Below, piece after piece: positions 1-14,561 of a DNA stretch of 14,561 nt. This stretch comes from Streptobacillus canis. GTDB lineage: Bacteria > Fusobacteriota > Fusobacteriia > Fusobacteriales > Leptotrichiaceae. The position numbers and the translations under genes are program-made. Each line of letters begins with the position of its first letter. Position 1 is the first letter of the stretch. A model generated the notes under the pieces. It ran no database searches. It was given only the letters and a program-made list of their open reading frames with translations, and was not told where the DNA came from. The stretch is from NCBI RefSeq assembly GCF_009733925.1, contig NZ_WOEI01000033.1, positions 1 through 14,561 on the forward strand, read 5' to 3'.

Positions 1-93
1 CACATTGAAACATTTATGAATAATTATCCAAGAAAAATTTTCAATGCTTTAACATCTAATCAAGTTTATGAGTGTCTATTAAATCTAGCTTAA
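1..93 (+). CDS. IS30-family transposase, C-terminal fragment (cut by window edge)
   Basis: This is the last 30 codons of an open frame that enters from the left edge and ends in TAA. It carries the segment FMNNYPRKIFNALT, which resembles the (N)N-x-PRK-x-L-x-x-x-TP ending of IS30-family DDE transposases. The stop codon lies seven bases before a terminal repeat that matches perfectly the one at the right side of the window, as expected for a transposase ending near its element's right end. The enzyme would cut and join IS ends. The catalytic core is outside the window, so whether this copy is intact cannot be judged. Confidence 0.75.
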   Translation, partial: HIETFMNNYPRKIFNALTSNQVYECLLNLA

Positions 94-99
94 TTAAAC

Positions 100-127
100 T
101 TTTGGACACTTACTATTTTAATTTAGG
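100..127. repeat. IS30-type terminal inverted repeat (right end)
   Basis: These 28 bases are the exact reverse complement of 14224-14251. The inner half carries GGACACTTACTATTTT and the outer edge ends TTTAGG. Perfect identity suggests that both copies are recent members of one IS. Confidence 0.85.
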
Positions 128-190
128 GATTTATCTGAACTTTATTATTTGAATCTTTTTATAGTCACTTTTAAACAAAGTCTACAAACT

Positions 191-748
191 CTATTTTACG
201 ATTTCTAATTTAACTTTAGTAATCCCTTTATTTAGATCCTCAATTTGTTTAAATGCTGCTTTACTCAAATCAATTACTCTACCTTTAATATATGGTCCTC
301 TATCATTAATTCTTACAACAATTGATTTACCATTTCTTAAGTTTGTAACTTTTACTTTTGTACCAAAAGGTAACTTTTTATGTGCAGCTGATATCTTCCA
401 AGTATCAAAAATTTCTCCACTTGCAGTCTTTCTACCATTCCATCTTTCTCCATAATATGAAGCTATTCCAGTTTGATATACTTTTTCTTCAACTACTTCT
501 TCTACAGTATTTTCTTTTTCTTCTTCCTTAACTTCTTCTACTGGCTGACTTTGTTCTTTTAGTTCAATGTTTAAATTAAAGTTCTCATCTTTTTTTTCTT
601 CATTTTCTCCTTTTATTTCAGATATTAATTCCTTAATATCAGCTTCTTTAATTTCAACATTCTCTACATGACTACTACTATTATTTTCATTAGCATTAAC
701 TGATGAAAATGTTAACCCTAATAAAAGTATAGTTAGTAATTTTCTCAT
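191..748 (-). CDS. rlpA: RlpA-family septal/peptidoglycan protein, secreted, no SPOR domain
   Basis: This 185-residue protein begins with a signal peptide ([19 protein letters not shown]), then a Glu/Lys-rich linker (about residues 20-90) and a double-psi beta-barrel RlpA domain (about 92-185). Landmarks are GIASYYG (94-100), TASGE (108-112), HKKLPFGT (123-130), INDRGPY (147-153) and RVIDLS (157-162). E112, H123 and D149 have the spacing of the residues implicated in lytic transglycosylase activity of Pseudomonas RlpA, so activity on peptidoglycan is plausible. No lipobox cysteine follows the signal peptide and no SPOR domain follows the barrel, so it is probably a soluble periplasmic protein, unlike classical RlpA. 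The ATG has a strong GGAGGT site seven bases upstream. It lies just after the sheath-type operon but has its own promoter. No clear terminator is visible in 94-190. Confidence 0.88.
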
Positions 749-773
749 AGTACCTCCGTTTCTGAATTAACTT

Positions 774-803
774 AGTATAACACAATATTTTTATATTTGT
801 CAA
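774..803 (-). promoter_or_regulatory. Sigma70-type promoter of the rlpA-like gene
   Basis: On the minus strand TTGACA (798-803) is followed after 18 bases by TATACT (774-779), about 25 bases before the ribosome binding site. The -35 box overlaps the stop codon of the preceding gene. No terminator hairpin separates the two genes, so readthrough from the operon may add to expression. Confidence 0.7.
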
Positions 804-2860
804 TTTTTTGAAATAAATACATCTTCAAATTGACAAAATATCTGATCTTCTCTACGTCTAACATAGCAAACTTTTAAAGTATCTACATCTTTAAATGAGA
901 AAAAAATTCTAACTATATCATTAACCACTTCATCAATCTCAAAGTCTTTAATTCCAAGCTCATCGGTATGTAATAATTCATTTTCATCTAACTCCATATA
1001 TTCATTTGGCAAATATAAGTGTATATTATATAATTCATTTTTCTTAAATTGAAATATTTTTTCTACATATAATTCTACAAATTTCGTTGTATTATCTTTA
1101 TCAATAAATGTTGTTTTATTTTCATATAGTGAAATAATCTTATGAATTTCCCCTAAATAATTTAAATATGATATTGAAATATCAAATTTAAGTGGTGTAA
1201 ACTTATAATTTAATACTAAATTCCCTTTTTCTTTCTTTTTGTTAAAATCGTTAATTATTTTGAATATTTCAGAATTATTTATTTGACTTTTATATTCTAA
1301 AAGTTTTCCAGGTATAAATTCCTTTAAAACATCAATAAAACTTTTCGTATACACTAGCCTACCTTGTAATTTTATATTTTCAAATTTTTTTAATATATCA
1401 ATGATTTTAAATTGATCAAAAAATTCAAAAATAGATTTAAATGATAAATAAGTTAAAATATCATCTAGGTCACTTCTTTCTTCAAAAGTAATATCAGAAA
1501 AATAATTATTTATCAGTTCTTTACTTTTTTCCCTAATAATCTGCGAAGGTTCAACATTATTTTTAATTTCTAAATCTTTATTTAATTTTAAATAATTAAA
1601 AATATTTCCTTTATAATTAATCATACTTTTATTTTCACTTACATATTTCATAACATGATTTAGAAAAGAAAGCTCAGTCAAATATTTATTTTCATGAATA
1701 ATTTGTAATAACATATTTAATCTATAACTTACTTTATTATTTACTACTCCATGTCTTACATATATAATTCTAAAAATATCTAGGTCCGATAATATATATG
1801 TGTATTCTCTATCATTATTATTGAAATATTTAATATTATGTAAACATTCAAAACTTAATCCATCATTTTGATTATATCCTTCATTTTTTAAAATAATAAT
1901 ACTTTGAAATTTAGTTTTTAAAGTGTATTCAATCTTTCTAAGATAATACTCTAAAAATTTCTCAAATAAGAAATTTTTACTTACTATTTTGCTATTTTGC
2001 CTTTCATCTTTAATTACTATATCTTCATTTTTCGTTAGAAAATATTCTACATTCATAAAATAGCTTCTATTTGTTATAAATCCATTCTCTTTCAACCTTT
2101 TTTTTGCATCATCTCCAAAATTTAAACTAATGTTATTTTCTAAATTAATTACATCTATACAAAAGTCTTCTTTTAAATATTCTGTTTCAAAATAATCAAT
2201 TCCAATTTTTATATATAAATTATTTTCTTGTGGACAATTAAATATTATTTCATATTTAATTATAGGTACTATGTATGAAAATACACTATTTTTTATCATA
2301 TCACTTTTATATTTATTATAATAAACCGAATATAGATCTACACTCTGTTCAAAAAAAGCAAAATAAAGTTTTTCTGTATTATGTTCATTTATAATTCTAT
2401 TCAATTCAGGATGCAAAGTTAATTCACACTTCACATATTCTCCATCTTCTTCTAAAATCTCACTTTGTAATATCCCATAAATATATCTGTATTCATTAAC
2501 TAAAAATACAATATTCAAATCAATTTTTCTATTTTTATTCACATAAATAATAATCTTACTTACTATCTCTTTATATATTTTAAAATCTTCATCAATAATA
2601 ATATCGTATCTTTCTAATTCAAGTACCCTTAAATTGTTTTCAAAAAATTCTTGTAATAAATAATAACCTTCATCTAAATACTCTTCAATTTGGGGAATAT
2701 ATTTAAATTCTGTATACTCTAAAATTCTATTAATAATTTTATTTCTAGATGTTTCAAAAAAATATTTATTTTGTATTTTTTCTTTTTGTGCAATTTGATT
2801 TAATTCATAATTATTTTTTAGCAATAATTCATTTTTACTATAATTTTTCAATAATATCAC
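800..2860 (-). CDS. Large unrecognised protein ending the sheath-type operon
   Basis: This is a 686-residue soluble protein with no signal peptide or membrane segment, rich in Lys, Asn, Ile and Tyr. I do not recognise a family with certainty. The C-terminal third has the stretch IKLQGRLVYTKSF..LKEFIPGKL (about residues 496-520), which loosely recalls the late nucleotide-binding-fold region of Hsp70-like proteins that occur in similar clusters. No N-terminal phosphate-binding Asp-x-Gly motif is visible, so this is only a lead. The frame opens with GTG at 2860, 23 bases inside the kinase gene, with no good ribosome binding site. TTG at 2851 is an alternative. The overlap suggests translational coupling. 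As the last gene of the unit it is probably a cytoplasmic accessory factor or chaperone-like component of the apparatus, by context only. Confidence 0.7.
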   Translation of the reverse strand: MILLKNYSKNELLLKNNYELNQIAQKEKIQNKYFFETSRNKIINRILEYTEFKYIPQIEEYLDEGYYLLQEFFENNLRVLELERYDIIIDEDFKIYKEIVSKIIIYVNKNRKIDLNIVFLVNEYRYIYGILQSEILEEDGEYVKCELTLHPELNRIINEHNTEKLYFAFFEQSVDLYSVYYNKYKSDMIKNSVFSYIVPIIKYEIIFNCPQENNLYIKIGIDYFETEYLKEDFCIDVINLENNISLNFGDDAKKRLKENGFITNRSYFMNVEYFLTKNEDIVIKDERQNSKIVSKNFLFEKFLEYYLRKIEYTLKTKFQSIIILKNEGYNQNDGLSFECLHNIKYFNNNDREYTYILSDLDIFRIIYVRHGVVNNKVSYRLNMLLQIIHENKYLTELSFLNHVMKYVSENKSMINYKGNIFNYLKLNKDLEIKNNVEPSQIIREKSKELINNYFSDITFEERSDLDDILTYLSFKSIFEFFDQFKIIDILKKFENIKLQGRLVYTKSFIDVLKEFIPGKLLEYKSQINNSEIFKIINDFNKKKEKGNLVLNYKFTPLKFDISISYLNYLGEIHKIISLYENKTTFIDKDNTTKFVELYVEKIFQFKKNELYNIHLYLPNEYMELDENELLHTDELGIKDFEIDEVVNDIVRIFFSFKDVDTLKVCYVRRREDQIFCQFEDVFISKN

Positions 2861-3512
2861 TTATCTTTTCTATCATATTTTTTATATTTCTATGTCTCTT
2901 TAATCTATTAAGTGAAAGCCCTTTTTTCAAAAAAAACTCTATTTTTTTATTATTATGTGTAATGTAATTATATTTAGTATCACAAATATCTGGATTTTTT
3001 TTATTAAATATTATGAAATAGAATATTGCTGTCAAAGAATATGTATCATTTTCATAATAATTTTTTTCAATATTAGAATATCTTTCAATACTTGAGAATC
3101 CCCTTGTATATGAATAATATTTCTTATCATAATATTTTTCTATAAAACGTGCTTCACTAAAATCAATTAAATATACTTCATTTCCATTAATAATAATATT
3201 GCAAGTATTAATATCATTATGTATTAAGCCTAATTCATGTATTTCAAAAACAGCTTCTAATATCTTTAAGTATAATTCCAATTTTTCTTTCAACGATAAT
3301 TTCTCTATGTTATAATCATATAATGTTTCACCATTAATTTTTTCATAAAATATTTCTTTATTATCTTTTTGAATTTTTACTCTTAAGATTTTAGGTATAC
3401 ATTTAATTTTATTCATTAGTAAATAAATCATTGTATTTATCTCATTTTTAAACATAAGATCAAAACCAGGTAATGAAATATCAAATGTTTTTTTGTAATA
3501 TTCTATTTCCAT
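2838..3512 (-). CDS. Minimal Ser/Thr-type protein kinase
   Basis: This 224-residue protein has a protein-kinase-like C-lobe. The catalytic loop HNDINTCN (98-105) keeps the catalytic Asp and metal-binding Asn but has Asn where most kinases have Lys. The DFG position reads LIDFSEA (115-121). RGFSSIERY (137-145) sits at the APE position, and NDTYSL (155-160) fits the helix-F Asp. The N-lobe is very short: I see no glycine-rich loop and no clear beta-3 Lys, only a possible helix-C Glu in FKNEIN. It may be an atypical active kinase (eukaryotic-like or choline-kinase-like) or a pseudokinase. The ATG at 3512 is preferred because GGTGGG precedes it. A GTG at 3524 in the same frame is an alternative. 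The gene overlaps both neighbours. Two FHA proteins in the operon are the obvious readers of its product. Confidence 0.78.
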   Translation of the reverse strand: MEIEYYKKTFDISLPGFDLMFKNEINTMIYLLMNKIKCIPKILRVKIQKDNKEIFYEKINGETLYDYNIEKLSLKEKLELYLKILEAVFEIHELGLIHNDINTCNIIINGNEVYLIDFSEARFIEKYYDKKYYSYTRGFSSIERYSNIEKNYYENDTYSLTAIFYFIIFNKKNPDICDTKYNYITHNNKKIEFFLKKGLSLNRLKRHRNIKNMIEKISDIIEKL

Positions 3513-5263
3513 AATTCCCACCACTTTTTGCCCATTTTTCTTTTTATATATTCTATTTTTTTATTTACTTCATTTTGTGTAGTTTTGGAATAATTTACCT
3601 TAGGCATGCTATCCAGTGCTCTTTTATATTCAATATACGCTTTTTCAAAATCATTGTTTTTTAAATAATCATCCCCTTTTTCAATTGACAATTTAATACT
3701 TTTTCTTATTTCAAATTCTAATTTTTCTTTATTAACTGGTTTTATTTTTTTATTTTCATCATCATCCTTTTTTTTCTGTTTATAAATTAACCTAATTCTT
3801 CCCTCTATTTCTTTTATTTTATTTTGATTATTTAAAAGATTAGCAAAATATAATGATTTTTCAAGATATGATACCGATGTAATATACTCTTTATTATCAT
3901 AATATTTTTTATGTTTTTCAAATAATTCATTCATTTCTGATTTTAAATATTCTATTTTCTCATCTATTTCAATTTTCCTTTTTTCTAAAGATTCTCTTTC
4001 TAAATTTAGTGAAAGTTTTGAATAACCTTCAATTAATTCTTCTAATTCAACTTTTGCATTTAATATATCATTCTTTATTAATTCATCTAATTTTGAATTT
4101 CTTTCATCTAATACTTTTTTTATTTCATTTATTCTATTTTGATTTTTACTCTTTATCTCATTTAAATCTAAAATATTAATATCAAAATATGATTTTTCAT
4201 ATTCTCCAATTAATTTATCAACTATCTTTATATTTTTAATTAAATCATCATCTGTTAAAAATAATTCATCATTTTGAATTATTACTAATCTATCTATTTC
4301 TCTTATATCTTTTTCGATATACTCTAATAATTCATTATCAACTTCTTCTATTTTGCTTTTAATCTTAATATATTCATTCTTAGCATTTAAAAACTCTCTA
4401 TTTTTTATCAATATTTTGCTTAATTCTTTTATTTCAAAAACTTTTTTTAAAATTTCATTATTTTTTTTAGCTATGTTTATTTTATTTATATATTGCTCTT
4501 TTTTTGTTATATTATTTCTAGTTAAGAATAAATATTTCTTATCTAGTCTTTTAAGTAAAATTTCTATATTTATAAATATCTTATTATTATTTTCATAATT
4601 AAAGTCTTTGTTTATATTTATCATTTTTATTTCATTTTCAATATTTTCATATATTTTATTTACAAACATACTAATCAAAATAAAATAAGATATAATGAAT
4701 AAAATTGAAAATATAAATAGATATTGAAGGAATATATTATTCGTTTTAAACTTTGTTTTTGTATTTATTTTATTTATAAGAACTTTAGTTAAAATAATAT
4801 CGTTAATTAATACATTTATTTCGTCATTTTCTTTTAAAGGAAATATTTCTGTTGATGCAAAAACATCTTCATTAGTTATTATTTCATTTTTAAAAAATAT
4901 TTCATCAGATCTAATAATTTTTAAGTTATAATCTTTCATGTAAACATAAATAAGATTAGAATAATCCGTTAATAAAACAGACAAATATATTGATGTATTT
5001 TCTTTATCTTTTTCAATTTTTAAATCATCAAAATCTCTAAGTGTTTCTTTAATCAATTTTTTTATATATTTAGCACTATAATTTGGATTCTCACTAAATT
5101 TAAAAACTAAATCCTCAATTAGTGTTACTAAATATATTTTTTCAAATTCCCCTTCAATAAAAAGAGATACCCAAATTGTAAATTCATCTGTTTCAAAAAA
5201 TACAAAATGGGTATCATCTTTATTTATATCATAGGGAAAAATACTTAATTTATTATTTTCCAT
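3503..5263 (-). CDS. Membrane protein with degenerate PP2C-like head and coiled-coil/TPR tail
   Basis: This 586-residue protein has three regions. Residues about 1-165 look like a worn PP2C phosphatase domain: SIYLSVLLTDYSNLIYVYMK.....IIR has the shape of the central PP2C strands, but the metal-binding Asp-Gly motifs are missing. A single transmembrane helix follows (about 178-201). The rest is highly charged and helical, probably coiled coil, ending in a TPR-like repeat (GDDYLKNNDFEKAYIEYKRALDSMP) and the tail KKWWELWK. It may act as a membrane scaffold or phospho-sensor rather than as a phosphatase. The ATG at 5263 shares one base with the upstream stop (TGATG); a TTG one codon earlier is also possible. 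The head domain assignment is inference from pattern, and the membrane helix and helical tail are seen directly. Confidence 0.72.
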   Translation of the reverse strand: MENNKLSIFPYDINKDDTHFVFFETDEFTIWVSLFIEGEFEKIYLVTLIEDLVFKFSENPNYSAKYIKKLIKETLRDFDDLKIEKDKENTSIYLSVLLTDYSNLIYVYMKDYNLKIIRSDEIFFKNEIITNEDVFASTEIFPLKENDEINVLINDIILTKVLINKINTKTKFKTNNIFLQYLFIFSILFIISYFILISMFVNKIYENIENEIKMININKDFNYENNNKIFINIEILLKRLDKKYLFLTRNNITKKEQYINKINIAKKNNEILKKVFEIKELSKILIKNREFLNAKNEYIKIKSKIEEVDNELLEYIEKDIREIDRLVIIQNDELFLTDDDLIKNIKIVDKLIGEYEKSYFDINILDLNEIKSKNQNRINEIKKVLDERNSKLDELIKNDILNAKVELEELIEGYSKLSLNLERESLEKRKIEIDEKIEYLKSEMNELFEKHKKYYDNKEYITSVSYLEKSLYFANLLNNQNKIKEIEGRIRLIYKQKKKDDDENKKIKPVNKEKLEFEIRKSIKLSIEKGDDYLKNNDFEKAYIEYKRALDSMPKVNYSKTTQNEVNKKIEYIKRKMGKKWWELWK

Positions 5264-5772
5264 CAAAAATTCCAGTCAAAATTCAATCCACATAATTCTA
5301 TGAAAATGAATCTACTTTCCCCCATTTCTATAATATCTAAATTAATAAGTTGTTTGCTTTCATATAAAGCTTTACCTTGTAAATATACTAATCCACTACT
5401 TTCACCAGGTGAAAGTACAAATACTCTCTGTTTTGGATTATATGTTATAGAACAATGATTTCTTCTTGCTATTGTATGGTCATTTTCTAAACATACATGC
5501 ATTTCTGTTGATCTTCCGATAAAATTTCTCTCATTAATTAATCTGAAATCTTTTCCTTTATCTACTCCAGAAATACATACTAGCCATCCAACAACAGGAG
5601 AAATGTTGCTTTCTTTAATCCAAAAAACTGATGTTTTTATATCCCCTTCTAATATTATTGGTTTTTTCTCTTCCTCTTTTGATAAATCTATTTTATCTCC
5701 ATCGCAATACGGACAATTTGTATATTTAGTTGTATTAAACATGTGCCCATTACTACATTTCAATAATTTCAT
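5263..5772 (-). CDS. Zinc-ribbon plus FHA domain protein
   Basis: This 169-residue cytoplasmic protein begins with a likely zinc-binding motif, C6-x3-H10-x9-C20-x2-C23 (KCSNGHMF...NCPYC). A charged linker (25-45) leads to an FHA domain (about 60-162). FHA landmarks are FIGRS (84-88) and ARRNH (102-106), which match the Gly-Arg and Ser/Arg-x-x-His positions used to read phosphothreonine. The usual Asn-Gly turn is replaced by SSGLVYLQGKAL. The expected role is to bind a phosphorylated partner, most simply a target of the kinase encoded two genes downstream. The start has AAGGTG eight bases upstream. The stop overlaps the next start. Confidence 0.85.
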   Translation of the reverse strand: MKLLKCSNGHMFNTTKYTNCPYCDGDKIDLSKEEEKKPIILEGDIKTSVFWIKESNISPVVGWLVCISGVDKGKDFRLINERNFIGRSTEMHVCLENDHTIARRNHCSITYNPKQRVFVLSPGESSGLVYLQGKALYESKQLINLDIIEMGESRFIFIELCGLNFDWNF

Positions 5773-5783
5773 TTAATCACACC

Positions 5784-6473
5784 TTAATTTACTAATATCT
5801 TAATTACACCAATATATATGATATCCCCAACTTCTATCAAATATGATTTTGTTGGAATAAGTTTTTCTTTTATTCTATTTTTTCTTTCAATTCCACTACC
5901 ATTTTTTGATTCTAAATCTTCATAGTACCAATTATCATTTACTTTATTTAATACTCCATGTAATCTACTAACTAAATGAGAATATTCATTATTTGAAAGA
6001 TCAATATCGATTTCTAAATTACTTTCACTTTTTTTACCTATTACAACAGCTGATTTATTTGAAATATCCCATGAAAATATATCATAATCAAAGTCATCCT
6101 TTAAAGTAAGAAGTTTTATGTGGTTTTTATGTGACTTGAGATTTTGTTCATTTAATTCATGTATATATTCATCTTTTTTTTCCTGTAAAATTTTATTGAT
6201 ATATCTAATATTTCTTTTTCTTTCGTGAGGATAATAAAACAGAAAAAAATACATAATATATATATTAAATATTGAATATGCAATAAGTAATGCTTTATAT
6301 GAAAAATTAATATAAAGATATACTAAAGAAGTAATTATTAGAAATATTAAAATTATCATATATTTAGTGTATGAATTTATTTTTTGGAATTTTACTTTAC
6401 CATTAATATTAAAGTTTGAATGTTTTAAATATTTAAATAGTATATACTTATACTTAGCAAACATCTTGTTCAT
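5784..6473 (-). CDS. Membrane-anchored FHA domain protein
   Basis: This is a 229-residue protein. A basic N-terminal segment (1-37) is followed by two hydrophobic helices (about 38-57 and 59-81, separated by a short turn), a charged linker and a C-terminal FHA domain (about 140-229). FHA hallmarks are LVSRLHG (around 167-173) and DLESKNGSGI (around 186-195), both close to consensus. The first Gly-Arg is Gly-Lys (VIGKKSES). It would place a phosphothreonine reader on the inner face of the cytoplasmic membrane, which fits a docking or regulatory part of a secretion machine. The start is uncertain: ATG at 6473 is chosen, but an in-frame TTG at 6482 would overlap the upstream gene by eight bases. 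Neither has a strong ribosome binding site, which suggests coupled translation. Confidence 0.85.
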   Translation of the reverse strand: MNKMFAKYKYILFKYLKHSNFNINGKVKFQKINSYTKYMIILIFLIITSLVYLYINFSYKALLIAYSIFNIYIMYFFLFYYPHERKRNIRYINKILQEKKDEYIHELNEQNLKSHKNHIKLLTLKDDFDYDIFSWDISNKSAVVIGKKSESNLEIDIDLSNNEYSHLVSRLHGVLNKVNDNWYYEDLESKNGSGIERKNRIKEKLIPTKSYLIEVGDIIYIGVIKILVN

Positions 6474-6474
6474 T

Positions 6475-7221
6475 TTATTCAACTTCTACTTTTTTATTAA
6501 AGTCAAATTCCTCTTTGTTTTTTTCTAAAATGCTATGGATTTCATATAGCTTAATTAAAATCTCTGTATTAGTTATTTTTTCTTTATAGAAATTTAATTT
6601 TTCAAAGATATATTTTTTCAAAACATTTAAATTTATAGTTTCTATATTACATAAAGAAGAGATCCATAAATCCATACTATCTTTTAAATTCAACATCATC
6701 ATTTTTTCAGACCAAATTTTTAATAATTTGGGATTAATTCCAGTTTTAGAGTATTTTACTTCATTTATATTTATTGAATTATACTCCATTGAAAATTTTT
6801 TTAATTCATAATCATAGTTTTTCAATGTTGCACCATCTCTTAAATTAAATCTTGCTACTTCAAAGCCTTCAATTTCTGCATGTCTATTGATTTTTAAATA
6901 TATTTTTTTATTTTTCGTGTATTCCTCTTCATAATCCTCTGTCATAATATACACAAAGAATTCTCCCTCTCCACTTGGAATTTCAATTGAAATCTTTTTA
7001 TCTAAAAGAATTACTTCATTATTATTTTTATATATTCCTTTATCCACGTAAACATTTTGTCCATCTGTTGTAGCATGTAGTCCTAAAATTATACCTTCTT
7101 CTTCATCCATATATTTTAAAAAAGTAGCACTATTAATATTTTGATTTATTGTAAATAAATCTGTACTTCTTAGTACTGTTTTACTTAAGAATTTAGGTAC
7201 AATATATTCATTTTCTATCAT
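6475..7221 (-). CDS. Possible baseplate/adaptor-like protein of the contractile operon
   Basis: I do not firmly recognise this 248-residue soluble protein. The N-terminal half is beta-rich. A pattern near residues 40-65, GIILGLHATTDGQNVYVDKG, resembles the 'Gl.vt.dg..v.V..G' opening of phage baseplate and tail-fibre attachment domains. It is followed by strand-rich segments with FFVYIM and EGFEVARFNLRDG. The C-terminal half (about 165-248) is helical and charged. Placed directly after the tube gene and before the FHA genes, a baseplate wedge, TssK-like adaptor or similar connector is the best guess, by position and weak pattern only. The ATG has a strong GGGGG ribosome binding site six bases upstream. 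Confidence 0.68.
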   Translation of the reverse strand: MIENEYIVPKFLSKTVLRSTDLFTINQNINSATFLKYMDEEEGIILGLHATTDGQNVYVDKGIYKNNNEVILLDKKISIEIPSGEGEFFVYIMTEDYEEEYTKNKKIYLKINRHAEIEGFEVARFNLRDGATLKNYDYELKKFSMEYNSININEVKYSKTGINPKLLKIWSEKMMMLNLKDSMDLWISSLCNIETINLNVLKKYIFEKLNFYKEKITNTEILIKLYEIHSILEKNKEEFDFNKKVEVE

Positions 7222-7229
7222 TTAACCCC

Positions 7230-7661
7230 CTATTTTTGATATCCACCTTCAACTACTATTTCTTTTATTTTTTCTTTTTTTTGTTTTATTTTCAAATAAA
7301 AATTTCCATTTCCATTTTTCTCATCAAAACTCTCAATATAATCAACTAGGAATGCATTTGTTAAATTAAATTTTCTTACTACATTGCCAGCTAATATTAC
7401 TTCAAGAGTAATATTTTTATATGCTTCTAAATCTTCAGCACTAACTAAAGACCATAATAATAATTTTCTTGTAACATCATCAGTATCATTTTGTCCAATA
7501 TTTGGAATTATTTTACCTTCAATTTCTAATCCAATACTTAAATCTGTTGATCTTGCATTTGAACTATCTTGTGTATCAGATAAAAATTTTACACTGATTA
7601 TGTTTTCTTGTTCAACTACAAATTCTTCATTTGCACCTTTTAAATTTAATCTAAATCCCAT
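7230..7661 (-). CDS. Tail-tube / Hcp-like protein candidate
   Basis: This 143-residue protein is almost all beta-strand, with the pattern NARSTDLSIGLEIEGKI (about 36-52), KLLLWSLVSAEDLEAYKNIT (66-85), a strand VVRKFNLTNAFLVDYIESF and a final strand YLKIKQKKEKIKEIVVEGG. This agrees with small tube proteins that sit beside sheath genes in type VI-like clusters of Clostridia, as I recall them, and with the size and fold logic of Hcp and phage tube proteins. It would form stacked rings inside the sheath. The gene lies 14 bases after the sheath gene and has an AAAAGGGGAAGAG ribosome binding region. Assignment rests on pattern and gene order. Confidence 0.68.
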   Translation of the reverse strand: MGFRLNLKGANEEFVVEQENIISVKFLSDTQDSSNARSTDLSIGLEIEGKIIPNIGQNDTDDVTRKLLLWSLVSAEDLEAYKNITLEVILAGNVVRKFNLTNAFLVDYIESFDEKNGNGNFYLKIKQKKEKIKEIVVEGGYQK

Positions 7662-7675
7662 TAACTCTTCCCCTT

Positions 7676-9814
7676 TTAATTAGTTTTATTAATTTCAATT
7701 TTTAGATTCTTTATTTCACCTAGGAATACTAAATTTAATTGACATGTATTGGTTTGTTCATCTATTATATGAGAAATGTCATCACCCTGTCTTAAAATAG
7801 CATTAACACTAGTTGATTCTTTTAACCATAAGCTTTTTTGACTAGTTGGACTATTACTAAAAAAATAATTTAATTTATCGGATTTAAAATCATTACTAGT
7901 ATATCTAAGCAATCTTTCTATATAGGTTGTTGTTAGTGTTTTGTATATACTTTCATAATTATTATTGCTTGTTTTAAATAGACTTCTTGCTTTGTATACT
8001 GTAATATTTTTTATCTTTTCATTCTTTAATTGTGCCTGTTCAGAGGCAAAAATAAATCCATAATTATTATTATTAATTTCTTCTTTTATTCCAACTGTAA
8101 ATCCACTTATTTCACGCGCCATTACTGTTCTTACAATTAATGAATTATCTTCAGCTTCTATATTAAATCTTACACCTGGATTATTTGATACATTTTTAAA
8201 TCTTTCTTTTAAATATGCAGGACACTGGTAGGCTGAGACGAGTCCTGCTGCAATATATGCTCCATCAACATATATTCCATCTAAAAAAAATTCTAAATTA
8301 TCATCTTCATTAAAAAATACTCCACTTTCGTTTATATATGCTTTTTTATCTAATTTAATTCCAGATTTATCTTTAGGAATTAAAGTAAGATTAGGTAAAA
8401 CTGGTATTATATATTCAGAAAAATATGTGTTTTCAAGTGGTTTTGTTTTTTCAATGTATTTACTTATTCCATGTACAGCTAAATTTTCAAACGTATTTTC
8501 ATTATTACGTTCAAAACTTATAAAAGTCTGAATTTTATGAGCAGATAGTATCTCCATAATATTTGTTAGATCTTCAATTGTATTTTGATTTTTATTTTTA
8601 GCTTTATTATTACCAGTAAATATATTTTTATTTGTTTTTTTCAACTCTTCTTTAAGTGAAATATTTGGAAAAATTGAAAACCATATAGTATTCTCAAATT
8701 CATTTTTATCATTGACAGTTCTTAAAAATTTTTCTAATTTCTCTCTATTCTTAGTTTGGGTCAATAAATCATTATCAATATTTGTAATTAGTAATTTAGG
8801 TAGCATATTTTTTGTATTTACTGAATATTGATCAAAGAATAATTTTACGCCCATTACTTTTTCAATAAGTTCTTTAGCAATCTTTATAAAATCTTCTTGA
8901 GAATTCTTGTATAACTCTAAATATTGATTATAGTTATTTACTTCTTTATCGAAATCTATATTAAGATTATTTGTTGTAATTGGAACATAAGTTCTTTTAA
9001 TTAAATTAGCAACATAATTATTGGGTTTCTCGGTTGATTCATTATAATCATTTTCGAATATTTCAATCAATTTTTGGCTGTTGTCCGATAATAATTTAGG
9101 TGTATCTAATTCTAATTTATTTTCGATAAATTCTATTTCTCCCCCTTCAGAAAACTCTAAATAACCAAGTTTTATATTATCAATATTTACATTTTCCTTA
9201 TTTTCACCTATTTCAAGTCTTGTTTTTATATCTTCTATAGCTAATGGCAACATAGCTAACACATTGTTATAATTTTTAGATGCCTCTTGAAATTTATAAT
9301 TTAATATATCACCTAAATCCAGTTTTTTAGGATTAAGATCACTTAATGCTTCGTATTTCCCAAATAAGTAGTTAATCTCTTTTCTTTGTTGTTTTATATT
9401 TTCTATTATTTTCCTAGGAGAAATTAATTCCAAAATATCTTCAAATTGAAATTCAACGTTCTTTTTATCCAGGTTTTTCCTATTTTCAATAAGTGTTGAT
9501 AACATTCTAATAAAACTATTATCATTATTAATATATATTGTAGTATACATTGAATCAGGTATATTTTCATTTTTACTTAATGTATATCCTATCCGTTTAT
9601 TTTCTACATCCATATATGAATAAATTTTAGGTTCGAATTTTTCTAAAAATTCATTAAAATTTGATACTAATAAATATTTGTTAATCTCTTCAATTTTCTC
9701 ATCATCTAAACTACTGACATTATCAACATCCCCTATCAATGTTAATATATCATAGGCTTCATCATTAAATTTTTCAAATAATAGCACTCTATTTGTTTGC
9801 TTAATTACCTCCAA
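7676..9814 (-). CDS. Contractile sheath protein, type VI secretion-like (TssC-like)
   Basis: This 712-residue soluble protein is the first gene of the operon. The C-terminal half carries the sheath-like signature: YIIPVLPNLTLIPKD (468-482), GIYVDGAYIAAGLVSAYQCP (513-532), a VYKARSLF segment (607-613), IERLLRY (632-638) and a final pair of strands (QLNLVFLGE, NLKIEIN) that would fit the strand exchange of sheath subunits. The N-terminal half is helical and poorly conserved, so it may also contain the TssB-equivalent part; no separate TssB-size gene is visible. It would polymerise around the tube and contract. The start is TTG, seven bases after GGGGG; no ATG fits. Upstream lie a consensus promoter and tandem repeats. 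Family is inferred from remembered clostridial and type VI sheaths, not from a search. Confidence 0.72.
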   Translation of the reverse strand: MEVIKQTNRVLLFEKFNDEAYDILTLIGDVDNVSSLDDEKIEEINKYLLVSNFNEFLEKFEPKIYSYMDVENKRIGYTLSKNENIPDSMYTTIYINNDNSFIRMLSTLIENRKNLDKKNVEFQFEDILELISPRKIIENIKQQRKEINYLFGKYEALSDLNPKKLDLGDILNYKFQEASKNYNNVLAMLPLAIEDIKTRLEIGENKENVNIDNIKLGYLEFSEGGEIEFIENKLELDTPKLLSDNSQKLIEIFENDYNESTEKPNNYVANLIKRTYVPITTNNLNIDFDKEVNNYNQYLELYKNSQEDFIKIAKELIEKVMGVKLFFDQYSVNTKNMLPKLLITNIDNDLLTQTKNREKLEKFLRTVNDKNEFENTIWFSIFPNISLKEELKKTNKNIFTGNNKAKNKNQNTIEDLTNIMEILSAHKIQTFISFERNNENTFENLAVHGISKYIEKTKPLENTYFSEYIIPVLPNLTLIPKDKSGIKLDKKAYINESGVFFNEDDNLEFFLDGIYVDGAYIAAGLVSAYQCPAYLKERFKNVSNNPGVRFNIEAEDNSLIVRTVMAREISGFTVGIKEEINNNNYGFIFASEQAQLKNEKIKNITVYKARSLFKTSNNNYESIYKTLTTTYIERLLRYTSNDFKSDKLNYFFSNSPTSQKSLWLKESTSVNAILRQGDDISHIIDEQTNTCQLNLVFLGEIKNLKIEINKTN

Positions 9815-9830
9815 TAACTTTCCCCCTTAT

Positions 9831-9887
9831 TTCTCAATTAACCCTTTACTTCTCAATTAACCCTTTACTTCTCAATTAACCTCCTTT
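9831..9887. repeat. 19-bp tandem repeats in the sheath-operon leader
   Basis: The unit TTCTCAATTAACCCTTTAC occurs exactly at 9831-9849 and 9850-9868. A third copy at 9869-9887 matches over its first 13 bases and then diverges. Read on the minus strand, every unit gives a purine-rich GGG or GGAGG block, TTAA and TTG. The array lies in the transcribed leader between the promoter and the TTG start of the sheath gene. Confidence 0.85.
9846..9887 (-). other. Possible leader minicistron with strong ribosome binding site
   Basis: AAAGGAGG (9880-9887) is the best Shine-Dalgarno match in the leader. Four bases later a TTG (9873-9875) opens a nine-codon frame (L/M-R-S-K-G-L-I-E-K) that stops at 9846-9848. 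It may be a decoy or coupling site, or simply a relic of repeat expansion. Translation is not shown. Confidence 0.3.
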
Positions 9888-9903
9888 CCCTTAGTGATAA
9901 TTT

Positions 9904-9932
9904 ATTATATAATTTTTTAAATTTAATGTCAA
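9904..9932 (-). promoter_or_regulatory. Consensus sigma70 promoter of the sheath operon
   Basis: On the minus strand TTGACA (9927-9932) and TATAAT (9904-9909) match consensus at all twelve positions with a 17-bp spacer. A-rich DNA lies upstream, like an UP element. Transcription should start near 9897, giving a leader of about 80 bases that contains the tandem repeats. No operator-like inverted repeat is evident apart from generic A/T palindromes. Confidence 0.85.
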
Positions 9933-9970
9933 GTGTTTTTTAATTTAAAATTAATTATTTTTTTCGTTAT

Positions 9971-9997
9971 AAAAAAAATAGCATCAATGATGCTATT
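9971..9997 (-). terminator. Intrinsic terminator after trmB
   Basis: AATAGCATCA (9977-9986) and TGATGCTATT (9988-9997) form a perfect inverted repeat, followed on the minus strand by six Ts (9971-9976). The stem includes the trmB stop codon. It separates the tRNA/trmB unit from the sheath operon. Confidence 0.85.
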
Positions 9998-10688
9998 CTT
10001 TTACTATTTCAATATACTTAATATTCATATTGTGTTTTGATAAAAATAAATGCTCAAATTCTGTCTTAATATTATCAACTGCTTTCTCCGAATTATGTAA
10101 ATCATCTGTGTGATATACAACTTCATAGCCTTTTCTATTTTTTATTAATTCCAAAATATCTAGATAATAATTTAAGTGGTCTGTTTTAAAATAAATTTTA
10201 GAACCTGATTTTAAAACAACATCTAAATCATCAAGTAATTTTTCACCAAATATTCTTTTATGTTCTTCGTTTTCCCATGGATCTGGAAAATTAATATATA
10301 ATCCTGACAATTCATTTTCTCCAATAAACTCTTTAAGTGAATCTACTCTTTTTTTCAGGAATATTAAGTTATTTAATTGATTTTTTTCTGCTTTTCTTGC
10401 TGCCTGTACTAATCTTTTTAACCTTAATTCAACCCCCATAAAATTTATATTTGGATTTTGTAATGCTTTATTATTTGTAAAATTAGCACTCCCACTACCA
10501 ATTTCAAGATGTAATTCATTATTATTTTTAAAGTATAAATTATTCCATTTACCTTTTGCGTTTAATATTTCTTCATTATCAAATATTAAATGTTGAGGAT
10601 AATTTGGCATTTCATACATATAAATATTATAATGTTTTTTGGGTTTTTCGAAAAAATATTCCCAAAGTTCTTTATCTCTATATTTCAT
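9993..10688 (-). CDS. trmB: tRNA (guanine-N7-)-methyltransferase
   Basis: This 231-residue Rossmann-fold methyltransferase makes m7G at position 46 in the variable loop of many tRNAs, using S-adenosylmethionine. Visible family marks are the SAM-binding loop LEIGSGSANF (61-70), MGVELRLKRL (84-93) with the acidic ribose-binding residue, the TrmB signature INFPDPW...H (132-143), KTDH (168-171) and TEFEHLF (209-215). Length is normal for the family. The ATG lies six bases after the preceding stop, with no good Shine-Dalgarno sequence, so translation is probably coupled. It shares a probable transcript with an upstream tRNA gene, which is a fitting neighbour for a tRNA-modifying enzyme. Confidence 0.94.
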   Translation of the reverse strand: MKYRDKELWEYFFEKPKKHYNIYMYEMPNYPQHLIFDNEEILNAKGKWNNLYFKNNNELHLEIGSGSANFTNNKALQNPNINFMGVELRLKRLVQAARKAEKNQLNNLIFLKKRVDSLKEFIGENELSGLYINFPDPWENEEHKRIFGEKLLDDLDVVLKSGSKIYFKTDHLNYYLDILELIKNRKGYEVVYHTDDLHNSEKAVDNIKTEFEHLFLSKHNMNIKYIEIVKE

Positions 10689-10694
10689 ATTATA

Positions 10695-11477
10695 TTATTT
10701 TACATATTCCTTTACAAGATTTTCTATATTGTATTCTTTTATAACTCTTTCTACAATTTCTTGTTTAACTTCTGCAACTTTAGTATTTAATAATGAGTCT
10801 CCTACATACTTAAATAATTGGTCTTGTGAATAATTTTTAACAGCTTCAAAATTTTCCTTTGAAAATCTTTGCATTTCATCTAAAACAGTTTGATTTGAAA
10901 CAACTGCTTTTTCTTCAATTAATTTATTTAGATAGTAGTTTAATCTTGCATCTTTTTTTATTAATTCAATTTCTTCTGCATTTTCAGTAAAGAAATTATC
11001 TTTTTTAGCATTTTCTTTTAAAACATTAATTAATAAAATTGATTTTATTAAATTTTCATTACCTTTTGTAAATAAAATATCTTCTTTAGATAATGTTACA
11101 TTTTCATCCATTTCGTTCATTAATTTTTTTACTAAATCTTCAAATAATCCATAATTTAATTGTTCAACTAAATTATTTTTAATCATTTCTCTAGCTTCAT
11201 TAAATGGTATTTTATTTTGTTCAAAGTATTCTTTATTATTGTTATATACTTCAATAATTGAATTTTCATTTACCATAACTCTTGGTTCTACTTTTTTTCT
11301 CATATATAATTCTAAAATTAAATTTTCTTCACTAAACCAAATATTTTTATTATCAATTTCAGTAAATTCATAGTTTAAGCTTTCATTATATATTGCTTTT
11401 GATACTAAGTTCATTTTTATAGCTTCTTCATTTTTTTCAAATACTTCTATTTCTTTTTCTGTTAATTTTAATTCCAT
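10695..11477 (-). CDS. SurA-N/trigger-factor-like helical protein, no signal peptide
   Basis: This 260-residue, largely helical, charged protein appears to lack both signal peptide and catalytic parvulin domain. Two regions resemble the N-terminal chaperone helices of SurA/PrsA-type proteins: SIIEVYNNNKEYFEQNKIPFNEAREMI (about 73-99) with the 'I..vY..N...F' and 'f.eare.I' pattern, and VVSNQTVLDEMQRFSKEN (about 190-207), repeating the theme. A cytoplasmic folding helper or inactive foldase relative is plausible, but the family is not certain. The ATG has AAAGGGTG eight bases upstream. It starts 21 bases after a tRNA gene and no promoter fits in that gap, so it is likely transcribed with the tRNA and with trmB. 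Confidence 0.72.
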   Translation of the reverse strand: MELKLTEKEIEVFEKNEEAIKMNLVSKAIYNESLNYEFTEIDNKNIWFSEENLILELYMRKKVEPRVMVNENSIIEVYNNNKEYFEQNKIPFNEAREMIKNNLVEQLNYGLFEDLVKKLMNEMDENVTLSKEDILFTKGNENLIKSILLINVLKENAKKDNFFTENAEEIELIKKDARLNYYLNKLIEEKAVVSNQTVLDEMQRFSKENFEAVKNYSQDQLFKYVGDSLLNTKVAEVKQEIVERVIKEYNIENLVKEYVK

Positions 11478-11498
11478 ATTATCACCCTTTCAAAAAAA

Positions 11499-11581
11499 TG
11501 GTGACTAGGAAGGGACTCGAACCCTTATGATTTCTCGGCAGATTTTGAGTCTGCTGCGTCTACCGATTTCGCCACCCAGCC
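11499..11581 (-). tRNA. tRNA-Leu (anticodon CAA)
   Basis: The 83-base minus-strand sequence folds as a class II tRNA. The acceptor stem pairs GGCTGGG with CCTAGTC (two G-T pairs), discriminator A and encoded CCA. The D-loop region reads GGCGAAATCGGTAGACGC, the anticodon stem GCAGA/TCTGC encloses CTCAAAA (anticodon CAA, reading UUG), the variable arm is about 11 bases, and the T-arm is AAGGG-TTCGAGT-CCCTT. UUG is used as a start codon by several genes here, but initiation uses the formyl-Met tRNA. A weak promoter (TTGTTT, 17 bases, TAAACT near 11593-11621) overlaps the preceding terminator tail. Confidence 0.95.
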
Positions 11582-11610
11582 ATCTATATTAAGTTTATCA
11601 TAAATAGTGT

Positions 11611-11639
11611 AAAAAAACAAGATAGAACACACGTCCTAT
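11611..11639 (-). terminator. Intrinsic terminator of the lysine transporter operon
   Basis: On the minus strand ATAGGAC and GTTCTAT (11633-11639 and 11622-11628) pair around a four-base loop, followed by CTTGTTTTTTT. It begins two bases after the stop codon of the ATPase gene. Confidence 0.8.
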
Positions 11640-11640
11640 T

Positions 11641-12372
11641 TTATTTTAATACCCTTGATAAAAATGCTTTTGTTCTCTCATTTTTAGGATTTGTAAAAAT
11701 TTTATCTGGATGTCCTTCTTCTAAAATTATACCACTATCCATAAATACAATTTTATCTGAAACTTCTCTTGCAAAATCCATCTCATGTGTAACAATTATC
11801 ATTGTTAATCCTTCATCCGCTAATTCCTTCATAACTTTTAATACCTCTCCAACCATTTCAGGATCTAATGCAGATGTTGGTTCATCAAATAAAAGTGCTT
11901 CTGGATCCATTGACAATGCTCTAGCTATTGCAACTCTTTGTTTTTGTCCTCCAGAAAGTTGATTCGGTCTAGCATTAATAAATTTGTCCATACCTACTTT
12001 TTCTAAATATTTTATAGCATTTTCTCTTGCTTCTTCTTTTGTTCTTCCAAGCACATTTGTTTGAGCTAACATACAATTTTCCAATACATTTAAGTTATTA
12101 AATAAATTAAATTGTTGAAAAACCATACCAACTTTTGCCCTATATTCATTTAATTTCATATTTTTATCTTGTATATCTACCCCATGATATAATACTTTAC
12201 CTTCATCATAATTTTCAAGTAAATTTAAACATCTTAATAAAGTTGATTTTCCAGATCCTGATGATCCAATAATTGAAACAACTTCACTTTGGTTTACCTC
12301 AAAATTTATGCCTTTTAATATTTCTCTTTTCCCATAACTTTTCTTTAAATTTTCTACATTTATTATACTCAT
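11641..12372 (-). CDS. Polar amino acid ABC transporter ATPase, probably lysine
   Basis: This 243-residue ATPase of the GlnQ/HisP/ArtP group powers import of a polar amino acid from the cytoplasmic side of the membrane. Walker A is GSSGSGKST (36-44), the Q-loop is VFQQFNLF (84-91), the ABC signature is LSGGQKQR (139-146), Walker B is LLFDEP (160-165), the D-loop is SALD (167-170) and the switch His is in VTHEMD (194-199). All active-site elements are present and the length is normal. The ATG lies two bases after the permease stop, and GAGGG within the end of the permease gene serves as its ribosome binding site. Lysine is inferred from the L-box leader of this operon, as the ATPase itself does not show substrate. 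Confidence 0.92.
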
Positions 12373-12374
12373 AT

Positions 12375-13907
12375 TTATCCCTCTATCTCATATTCTTTAT
12401 TTCCATCCATTTTTGCCTCTAAATATCTAAATAATTTAGATAACGAATATGTTAATACAAAATATATAGCACATGTAATTACGAAAACTTCATAATATCT
12501 AACATGTGATCCAACTATTGATTTTGATGTAGTGAATAATTCAGTAACTCCTATAGAGAATAATACTGATGTATCCTTAATATTAATAATAAATTCATTT
12601 GCAACTGATGGCATTACATTTCTTATTGCTTGTGGTAATATTAGCTTTCTCATAATATTAAAATGATTCATTCCCAATGCTTCTGCAGCTTCATACTGTC
12701 CTTTATCTATTGAATCTATCCCACCTCTTACTATTTCAGTAATATAAGCACCAGTATTATATGAAACAATTATTAAAGCAGAAGTTAAAGCAGGTATGTT
12801 AATACCTGTAACTTGTGAGAATCCATAATAAAAAATTATTGCTTGTACTATCATTGGAGTTCCTCTAATGAAAGTAACATATATTTCAACTAGATATTTA
12901 AATATCGTATATATAAACATTGAAAATTTTGATTTTTTATTTACATTTCTTTCATCTCTTAATAAAGATAGTATTAATCCTATTATAAATCCAAAGAAAG
13001 TACCAACTAATGATAAATTGATTGTTGTTAAAGTTCCATATAAGAAATCTTTCCAATAATTAACTATAAAATATTTTATCCAACCAAAGAATGTTGTTGG
13101 AACTTTTTCTGAATCTTGATTAGGTTGAGTTTCTATTGCTCTTTGCATAATTTCTTCTCTTTTTTCTTTTGAAATATCATCTAAAGCACTATTAATTTTA
13201 TCTTTTAATTCTGTATTACCTTTTTTTAAGGCTATTGCAATATTTACATCATCTCTATCATATTTAAAACCATTTGATTTATCAAATTCTACAAAAGATA
13301 TGTTAGGATTTGATAACTTAGCTGAAAGTGCTCCTGGCTTCTCAGAAACATATCCATCTATTTTCCCTGATTCTAAAGCAACCAACATATTAGAAAAATT
13401 TTCACTAGCACTTTCCTTTTTTAATCCATTTATTTGGTCTAACACAGTATAATGAAAAGTATTCAACTGTGCAGTTAATTTAGCATCTTTAAACTCTTGA
13501 ATATTCTTAGCATTAATATATTTAGAATCATTTCTAACAACTATAACTAAATCAGATTCATAATATAGATTAGTAAATTCAAGATTTTCTCTTCTTTCTT
13601 TTGTTGGAGACATTCCAGCAATAACAACATCAATCTTATCAGAATTAAGTGCTGGTCCTAACAATGAATCCCAATCACTTTGAACAATTTCTAATTCCAT
13701 ATTTAATTTTTCAGCTATTAATTTAGCAATTTCAACATCATAACCACCTGCATAACCATTTTTTAGTTTTACAGCGCCATTTCTATTGTCATTTTGAAAC
13801 CAGTTAAATGGGGCATATCCCGCTTCCATACCTACCCTAAGTTTTTCTATACTAAATGATAAACTTGATAGTATCATAAACATAAATAATAAAAATCTCT
13901 TTTTCAT
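12375..13907 (-). CDS. Fused substrate-binding/permease ABC importer protein, probably lysine
   Basis: This 510-residue two-part protein starts with a signal peptide or N-terminal anchor (about 1-19). A family-3 periplasmic amino-acid-binding domain (about 20-262) follows, with [14 protein letters not shown] near its start, [14 protein letters not shown] (54-68) and [20 protein letters not shown] (93-112). A HisM/GlnP-type permease (about 285-495) completes it, with several membrane helices and the EAA loop [10 protein letters not shown]...LPQA (405-427) that docks on the ATPase. Such fusion resembles the GlnP layout, placing the binding domain on the outer face of the cytoplasmic membrane. 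The leader carries a lysine riboswitch, so lysine is the likely substrate. AGGAAAAG precedes the ATG. Confidence 0.92.
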
Positions 13908-13925
13908 ACTTTTCCTTTCTAAAAT

Positions 13926-13952
13926 AAAAAAAACTGATAGTTATCTATCAGT
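13926..13952 (-). terminator. Riboswitch-controlled intrinsic terminator (attenuator)
   Basis: On the minus strand ACTGATAG and CTATCAGT pair around ATAA and are followed by a run of Ts (13926-13932). The hairpin lies between the lysine aptamer and the ribosome binding site of the permease gene, so termination there would stop transporter expression. A competing pairing just upstream joins TATACTTA (13952-13959) to TAAGTATA (13984-13991). Confidence 0.85.
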
Positions 13953-14004
13953 AAGTATAAAAATATATAAAAATAATATAAAATATACTTAACCAATAGC
14001 ACAA

Positions 14005-14165
14005 CATTATATACTATAATGACAGTATTGCAAATCTTATTTACAATCCCACCTACATATTTGTCAAATATGTAAATTCGGCATTTTCCCCTTTCAAATT
14101 TAATCATTGACTTGACTGTCTCATAAATTTTACTCTTGAATCATGCGCCTCTATCTCGTTAGTAA
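14005..14165 (-). promoter_or_regulatory. Lysine riboswitch (L box)
   Basis: The minus strand shows the conserved L-box blocks in order: GAGATAGAGGCGC (14145-14157), AAGAGTA (14131-14137), AGGGGAAAATGCCGAA (14077-14092), a hairpin with 8-bp stem (14055-14073), GGTGGGA, a 9-bp stem ATTGTAAAT/ATTTGCAAT (14027-14047) and closing ACTGTCA. GATAG (14151-14155) pairs with CTGTC (14021-14025) as part of P1. Part of the P1 3' strand can instead form CATTATA/TATAATG (14005-14021). Lysine binding should stabilise P1 and favour the downstream terminator. The predicted effect is lower transporter expression when lysine is plentiful. Confidence 0.93.
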
Positions 14166-14169
14166 ATAT

Positions 14170-14198
14170 ATCATATCATAAATTTATTAAATTGTAAA
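14170..14198 (-). promoter_or_regulatory. Promoter of the lysine riboswitch/transporter operon
   Basis: On the minus strand TTTACA (14193-14198) and TATGAT (14170-14175) are separated by 17 bases. Each differs from consensus at one position. The start site would fall near 14163, right at the beginning of the riboswitch P1 region. Confidence 0.75.
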
Positions 14199-14223
14199 GT
14201 ATAATAAATTGTATTATTATTTT

Positions 14224-14251
14224 CCTAAATTAAAATAGTAAGTGTCCAAAA
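14224..14251. repeat. IS30-type terminal inverted repeat (left end)
   Basis: This is the exact 28-base reverse complement of 100-127. It begins CCTAAATT and ends in GTGTCCAAAA. Confidence 0.85.
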
Positions 14252-14272
14252 TATAAGTTGAAAAAAAGTGGA

Positions 14273-14320
14273 TATACAGTACAATCATAAACGACTAAAT
14301 TCATTGAGAGGAACTGTATA
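14273..14320 (+). promoter_or_regulatory. Hairpin in the transposase leader
   Basis: TATACAGT (14273-14280) and ACTGTATA (14313-14320) are perfectly complementary; two further G-C pairs can form across one bulged A. The loop holds GAGAGGA, the likely ribosome binding site, and the transposase ATG begins four bases after the stem. Many IS elements use such structures to limit transposase translation, but the role here is inferred. Confidence 0.4.
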
Positions 14321-14323
14321 CCC

Positions 14324-14561
14324 ATGACTAATAATAACATAAATTTAGAAAATAATAAAAAAGCTAAATATAAACATTTGAATTATGCAGATAGAGTAAT
14401 AATATCACATCTACTAAAACAAGCTAAAATAAATGATTTAACTAAATATGTTTCTAATCCCACTAAAGGGCATAAAAAATATAGCTGATATCTTAGCTAA
14501 ATGTACAAAAACAATAAAAAGAGAAATTAAAAGAAGAACTCTAGAACAACTTGATTATCTT
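14324..14561 (+). pseudogene. IS30-family transposase, N-terminal part, frameshifted
   Basis: The frame starting at ATG 14324 reads KYKHLNYADRVIISHLLKQAK, typical of the start of IS30 transposases, then stops at TGA 14486-14488. The family pattern continues in another frame as NIADILAKCTKTIKREIKR (from about 14478), a helix-turn-helix ending in the T-I-x-R-E-I-x-R signature, and stays open to the window end. One extra A in the A6 run at 14474-14479 explains the break: with five As the reading is continuous. This is either a real inactivating mutation or a sequencing error. The needed shift is +1, so it does not look like standard -1 programmed slippage on the A run. Confidence 0.75.

Follow-up and report, generated by a model that had tools for sequence, protein, structure and literature searches.

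A probable sheath, tube and control operon of a contractile injection system in Streptobacillus canis, with decayed enzyme-like proteins

The contig NZ_WOEI01000033.1 of Streptobacillus canis (assembly GCF_009733925.1), analysed here over positions 1 to 14,561 (the whole stretch of 14,561 nucleotides, hereafter the window), carries an eight-gene operon on the minus strand (800-9814; Table 1), the products of which include a sheath-like and a tube-like protein. The genes are separated by gaps of 8-14 bases or overlap by 4-23 bases, which fits a single transcription unit. A preliminary description of the window, made from the sequence, had placed sheath-like and tube-like genes, followed by FHA, kinase and PP2C-like genes, in one operon of a probable fusobacterium. 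All eight open reading frames were recovered where it had put them, and the nearest named proteins come from Streptobacillus. The best named matches of the sheath are to S. ratti and S. moniliformis (88%) and S. notomytis (87%), and those of the tube are to S. notomytis and S. felis (86%). The genomes G099-G102, with sheaths 84-88% identical to that of the window, are termed Streptobacillus-like here.

Table 1. Features of the S. canis operon and its flanks (window coordinates)
Feature	Coordinates	Strand	Evidence or remark
Promoter-like site TTGACA-17-TATAAT	9904-9932	-	5' of the sheath gene; consensus match only
Single-chain contractile sheath protein, 712 aa	7676-9814	-	
Hcp-family tube protein (putative), 143 aa	7230-7661	-	TssD family matches and PDB Hcp1 profile match
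Conserved protein, 248 aa; possible baseplate or adaptor part	6475-7221	-	Alignment of 32 homologues
Membrane FHA protein FHA232, 232 aa	5784-6482	-	PF00498 E 9.7e-8; VSRLH and SKNG
Zinc-ribbon-like and non-canonical FHA protein FHA169, 169 aa	5263-5772	-	PF00498 E 2.3e-6
587-aa membrane protein with a decayed PP2C-like N-domain, a single hydrophobic segment and a TPR-like C-part	3503-5266	-	
228-aa protein resembling Ser/Thr kinases, with the N-lobe truncated; probable pseudokinase	2838-3524	-	PF00069 40 bits
Hsp70-fold protein p686, 686 aa, without ATP-binding motifs	800-2860	-	
Flanking trmB	9993-10688		
Flanking DPBB/lytic-transglycosylase (RlpA-like) gene	191-748		

The 712-aa protein gave no sheath match in searches of Pfam, NCBIfam, PHROGs or PDB by sequence. 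Its contractile sheath fold is supported by a structure model and by the VIA-align structural comparison, and the likeness to known sheaths surfaced only in the latter, after Foldseek had come up empty. Sheaths of phages and contractile injection systems (CIS) align over the one 712-aa chain, from residue 1-9 to about 700, and TssC-type chains of type VI secretion systems (T6SS) align to it only from residue ~286-314 onward. Matches of the sheath profile to NS1 were taken as chance. The 143-aa protein belongs to a family of 37 members with a mean column identity of 58%, and profile matches support it as a putative Hcp/gp19-type tube. TssD/Hcp (PF17642) is matched by 26 of the 37 at E <= 1 (best 7.5e-7; the window protein itself E 0.1, below the cut-off), one member matches T4 gp19 (E 0.0056), and the profile of all 37 found Hcp1 (6bdc) as its sole PDB match at E <= 10 (E 0.052). 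Matches of the first tube profile to FimG were also taken as chance. The preliminary description had tied its proposal of a contractile system to a sheath core and a tube fold in these two proteins; the former was found by modelling and the latter by profile only, and the proposal stands.

Sheath matches were detected in 34 of 98 Fusobacteriota genomes (full-length in 32, fragmentary in G055 and G081) and in 14 of 398 Bacillota genomes, a count which includes G002 and G005, carriers chosen beforehand, as well as one marginal match (7.9e-4) and two distant ones (29-31% identity). Two full-length sheath copies each are present in G075, G077 and G084 (Fusobacteriota). The tube scan gave at least 67 loci, and 48 among the matches listed belong to Paenibacillus, Brevibacillus, Aneurinibacillus or Cohnella. 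Linkage was assessed in a set of 82 loci found via tube or sheath (L002, L029 and L056 being dropped as duplicates), with genes sought in six frames; 69 loci extend at least 10 kb downstream of the sheath and 13 less. Among the 69, the counts for which are not independent because the loci are related, the tube was found in 67, FHA-1 and FHA-2 in 64 each, a J-domain gene and a PP2C-like gene in 59 each, and all three Hsp70 motifs in 57, while p686 was not in range in six. The kinase was found in at least 50 and strict PP2C motifs in at least 38; both are lower bounds, since strict patterns were used and the search extended no further than 6 kb upstream.

The protein p686 was one of two products left unrecognised in the preliminary description. 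Its Hsp70 fold is supported by a model (predicted template-modelling score, pTM, 0.59) and by structural comparison; the other, the 248-aa protein, remains without an informative match, as no Pfam family was matched by more than one of the members scanned. The phosphate-1, phosphate-2 and adenosine ATP-binding motifs are absent in the window p686 and in five other short members of the family. Of 30 long members (set A3), 29 have them in the same or a slightly varied form, and hhalign of 30 long sequences of this type matched DnaK with E 8.5e-6. All 57 loci with the three Hsp70 motifs possess the J gene, and it is absent from all four of the 69 loci where the three motifs are lost; likewise, neither motifs nor J gene are found in the window or in a further two loci of Streptobacillus-like genomes, the flanks of which are shorter. 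L006, which is cut by the locus end, shows two Hsp70 motifs and no J gene. In G101 (locus L102) the p686 gene is split into two overlapping frames of 268 and 428 aa, by assembly error or real loss. It was also considered that the J gene had merely been relocated. A second short J-domain protein does occur in all seven genomes of the window's clade (a frame of 158-175 aa, below the cut-off in two), but its architecture, read in four of the seven (G100, G098, G070, G088), differs: hydrophobic segments are N-terminal and the J domain is C-terminal, while the system's own J protein has an N-terminal J domain.

In the sheath tree (midpoint root), the decayed lineages fall within one clade of 10 rows with support of 100/99; the metagenome rows P0006, P0009 and P0011 of this clade lay outside the p686 check. 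In the neighbouring clade of six rows, G071, G090 and G096 were checked and their Hsp70 motifs are intact. In the same tree, L001 clusters with G032 and Cetobacterium. This locus (12,266 bases) is a complete operon of fusobacterial type, its contig comes from a metagenome bin of the archaeon Methanovirga, and it is probably mis-binned.

The two FHA proteins and the kinase named in the preliminary description have FHA and kinase domains scoring above the Pfam cut-offs. FHA232, with hydrophobic segments read from its sequence, keeps the phosphothreonine-binding signature (SRLH and the Asn are present; the first motif reads GK). In alignment, FHA169 has an ARRNH variant of the FHA signature and Cys motifs, and its zinc-ribbon-like part may bind zinc. 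The kinase (cut-off 31.7 bits) keeps the HxD and Asn motif as HNDINTCN, has DFS in place of DFG and no glycine loop, and its lysine could not be aligned with certainty; judged by these motifs it is a probable pseudokinase. Kinases of three small-genome sister lineages, 156-201 aa long, keep an IK-type lysine and have DFG altered to DFA or DFD. The short kinases (230-235 aa) of Cetobacterium, G032 and L001 keep both the lysine and DFG, and therefore short length alone is not decay.

The label "PP2C-like" given to the 587-aa protein in the preliminary description holds by descent, although the protein has no Pfam PP2C match and only a weak TPR_2 match (E 0.0092, below the cut-off). Alignment to active-looking and inactive-looking PP2C relatives points to an origin from PP2C with the metal-binding aspartate motifs gone. 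In Bacillota two PP2C-type proteins stand side by side, an active-looking one with ADG, SDG and QDN motifs and an inactive-looking one of PP2C/TPR type; of these, the window retains only the second, decayed further. PP2C_2 scored above the cut-off in none of the seven genomes of the window's clade (in two, a frame of 373 aa at another site matches it weakly) and in three of five other fusobacterial carriers, as a separate PP2C gene in G090 and G096 and inside the TPR protein in G071. An active phospho-control circuit, as read in the preliminary description, in which the kinase would phosphorylate a component, FHA232 would read the mark and another phosphatase would reverse it, is unlikely in this organism. 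The retained HxD motif and above-cut-off score of the kinase, its ratio of nonsynonymous to synonymous substitution rates (dN/dS) of 0.19, the FHA232 signature, and the lysine of the sister and other short kinases are compatible with such a circuit, but the window kinase lacks the glycine loop, a clear lysine and DFG, the DFG of the sister lineages is altered too, the J gene and the PP2C motifs are missing, and PP2C_2 did not exceed the cut-off in the seven clade genomes.

In Cetobacterium, Brevibacillus and Paenibacillus the operon continues into genes of the f428 and f231 families, which have no informative Pfam match in the members scanned, and then into genes for proteins that match Phage_GPD, Phage_base_V and DUF2345, several of these matches falling just short of the cut-off; a Cetobacterium protein of 1196 aa matches DUF4280 with E 5.4e-19. 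Two or three VgrG-like genes of differing lengths lie downstream of the core in L076-L079 (Brevibacillus, Paenibacillus). Neither f428 and f231 nor hub or spike genes were found at the sheath locus of the Streptobacillus-like genomes. All four possess a second cluster with f428, f231, a tube paralogue c190 (all three labels were coined in this analysis), VgrG split into two genes and a 1034-1088-aa protein. The paralogue adjoins VgrG and belongs to the same iterated profile family as the 143-aa tube. In the one copy scanned of the large protein (1084 aa, G100), DUF4280 (E 1.1e-4) and CHAP (0.0038) matches are both below the cut-off. Sheath and hub are separated by ~100 kb in G100 (673,933 and 776,355) and by ~66 kb in G102, and they lie on different contigs in G099 and G101; the hub is likewise apart from the sheath in G071 and G098. 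The VgrG/gp27-gp5 hub and spike were thus found in relatives and in the four Streptobacillus-like genomes, outside the window, with several matches below the Pfam cut-off.

Between G100 and G102, dN/dS (own Nei-Gojobori script) was 0.09 for the sheath, 0.04 for the tube, 0.12 for the 248-aa gene, 0.17 for FHA232, 0.09 for FHA169, 0.27 for the 587-aa gene, 0.19 for the kinase and 0.18 for p686, the flanking trmB giving 0.06 for comparison. The synonymous divergence (dS) from the window is high, 0.5-1.1, and the corresponding ratio of uncorrected proportions (pN/pS) is 0.13-0.19 for sheath and tube. The 587-aa, kinase and p686 genes evolve much faster than those of the sheath and tube. Their rapid change, the loss of the enzymatic motifs and of the J gene, and the p686 gene split in one sister genome could be read as a pseudogenising remnant of the system in the window's clade. 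Such a reading is quite improbable, as the sheath and tube values are near that of trmB, all eight genes stay below 0.3 and the spike cluster is kept in all four Streptobacillus-like genomes. A defective prophage or phage-tail remnant, to which the phage-related folds of sheath, tube and hub might point, is very improbable on the scan made, which covered the operon proteins of the window and chosen neighbours in relatives. Searches of phage records (50,697) and plasmid records (72,556) gave no sheath match. The operon keeps its position with trmB on one side and rlpA on the other in three Streptobacillus-like genomes, the available stretch of the fourth stopping short of rlpA; a full-length sheath is present in 32 of 98 Fusobacteriota genomes; the genes are under purifying selection; and the window proteins match PHROG families weakly (E >= 0.015), two kinase families excepted.

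It is likely that the operon represents the sheath-tube-control half of a contractile injection system of a lineage common to Fusobacteriota and Bacillota, the enzymes of which have decayed in the window's clade. The active sites appear to be lost in the phosphatase-like and chaperone-like proteins, and probably in the kinase, with the genes being kept. The relation to loci of Clostridia and the distinctness of the system, both suggested in the preliminary description, gain support; the Hsp70 fold of p686, its J-domain partner in relatives and the spike genes elsewhere in related genomes go beyond it. The folds, gene linkage, motif loss and selection were computed here; the anchoring, gating, recycling and targets are inferred.

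Several observations weigh against this interpretation. At a threshold of E <= 0.001, the sheath model matched nothing in Foldseek (best E 0.59), and the tube identity comes from profiles, the window protein's own match being weak. The pTM of p686 is only 0.59, hhalign of six short p686-type sequences found no match to DnaK, and the model alignment took in motif-intact relatives, so that the modelling favours an Hsp70 fold. The loss of Hsp70 motifs and of the J gene is not strictly coupled, because L018 has lost two motifs and retains the J gene. FHA genes were not in range in five of the 69 loci (G068, G075, G080, L006, L061), nor was the tube in G075 and G080. In the locus numbering, the sheath loci without FHA in range are L006, L061, L117/L118 (G068), L106/L107 (G080) and L119 (G075); there the control genes may be located elsewhere or form a module that can exist apart from the machine. 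Selection on three genes is weak, given their high pN/pS against the window. The 587-aa gene gave 0.57-0.64, p686 0.47-0.51 and the kinase 0.40-0.60, where 0.60 belongs to a gene copy cut at the border of the compared stretch. The spike cluster of the window strain itself is presumed from its relatives. Finally, a gp25-like protein is usually present in CIS, and PF04965 was over the cut-off in none of 13 carrier genomes, with two weak matches; divergent forms are possible.

The system would work as follows. The single-chain sheath would polymerise around the Hcp-like tube. At the tip of the tube would sit a VgrG-like hub/spike and a PAAR-like protein of the DUF4280 type, for which the weak CHAP match in the one Streptobacillus-like copy scanned hints at possible peptidoglycan cutting. 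To judge from the folds, the contracting sheath would push the tube with its tip through the cell surface to the outside. The kinase, a PP2C phosphatase and the two FHA proteins as readers may control when the machine assembles or fires in most relatives, where subunits may be loaded or recycled by the Hsp70 and J protein belonging to the system, perhaps doing the job of ClpV in T6SS. In the window's clade, where the J gene is gone, the search for an active-looking PP2C found none, the catalytic motifs of the Hsp70-like and PP2C-like proteins appear lost and the kinase is reduced, the decayed proteins may now serve mainly as a scaffold, with FHA232 and the 587-aa protein as a membrane anchor and the FHA domains as docks; this role is suggested because the decayed genes remain under purifying selection. 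A wider proposal can be put forward only tentatively: that this is a separate contractile secretion type, found in fusobacterial and Gram-positive cells, with firing set by a switch of kinase, FHA and PP2C proteins and with an Hsp70-J pair of its own that handles the sheath in place of ClpV, and that the Streptobacillus-clade enzymes have turned structural. If so, the scaffold role would be separable from catalysis, and the window's clade would be a natural experiment that may separate the two functions. The operon also places such a contractile machine in Streptobacillus, the rat-bite-fever genus.

The window has a GC content of 16-26% in 1-kb steps. The site just upstream of the sheath gene (9932-9904, minus strand) fits the sigma-70-type pattern at 12 of 12 positions, as does no other of the 123 promoter-like matches found in the window. 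Its assignment as the promoter of the sheath operon is suggestive only, because such matches are not enriched over shuffled sequence (mean 135.5). Upstream of trmB lies a 260-aa gene (10695-11477), conserved in all four Streptobacillus-like genomes and without a Pfam family above the cut-off. An amino-acid ABC transporter gene (12375-13907), which fuses a substrate-binding protein to a permease, is followed by an ATPase-like gene (11641-12372) read from sequence.

The system shares with T6SS an Hcp-family tube (PF17642 TssD), a VgrG-like hub, a DUF4280/PAAR-like tip and a contractile sheath. The kinase and FHA control also has a counterpart in PpkA-Fha of T6SS; PppA is another part of that control. 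It differs in that the sheath is one chain instead of the two-subunit TssB/TssC, and in having its own Hsp70-fold protein, joined in relatives by a J protein. TssC (PF05943), TssK (PF05936) and TssM/IcmF (PF06761) were found in none of the 13 carrier genomes, the last two being sought by sequence profile in the relatives, and the E. coli control was positive for all three. ClpV (TIGR03345) was above the cut-off in none of the 13 and in one of 14 controls, with Clp homologues below the cut-off in all 13. By the features tested, the system does not qualify as a T6SS; it would work like a T6SS or CIS. The antifeeding prophage (AFP), the Photorhabdus virulence cassettes (PVC) and the Streptomyces and haloarchaeal CIS differ from it: here no gp25-like match exceeds the cut-off, and FHA/kinase/PP2C-type genes, Hsp70/J genes and VgrG/DUF4280 cassettes are present. 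The DUF4280 PAAR-like tip is shared with the Francisella T6SS, which has IglG and the sheath and control genes of which are different from those of this operon. Disassembly of the Francisella system is reported to employ ClpB (PMC7182274).

Gram-positive bacteria were already known to have contractile systems: the Streptomyces CIS has been described, and genes associated with extracellular contractile injection systems (eCIS) have been noted in some Firmicutes (PMC8213781). A search of titles and abstracts, with preprints and most subscription journals outside its scope, found no description of a sheath-tube-FHA-Hsp70 locus, which may exist elsewhere. A Gram-positive translocation system was proposed from DUF4280 alone in one paper (PMC5349215). 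In another, a "phage-like translocation system" of Firmicutes was deduced from PAAR_H2 beside Phage_GPD genes, with conserved eCIS or T6SS genes reported absent near these pairs (PMC8651086). The Firmicutes system shares the Phage_GPD and DUF4280 gene pair with the one described here and is probably the same; the difference lies in the sheath and tube, identified here in loci that also bear Phage_GPD matches. The operon family therefore supplies a sheath and a tube, together with a defined gene set, in loci with Phage_GPD/DUF4280 genes and, unexpectedly, brings an Hsp70-J module into the repertoire of contractile machines.

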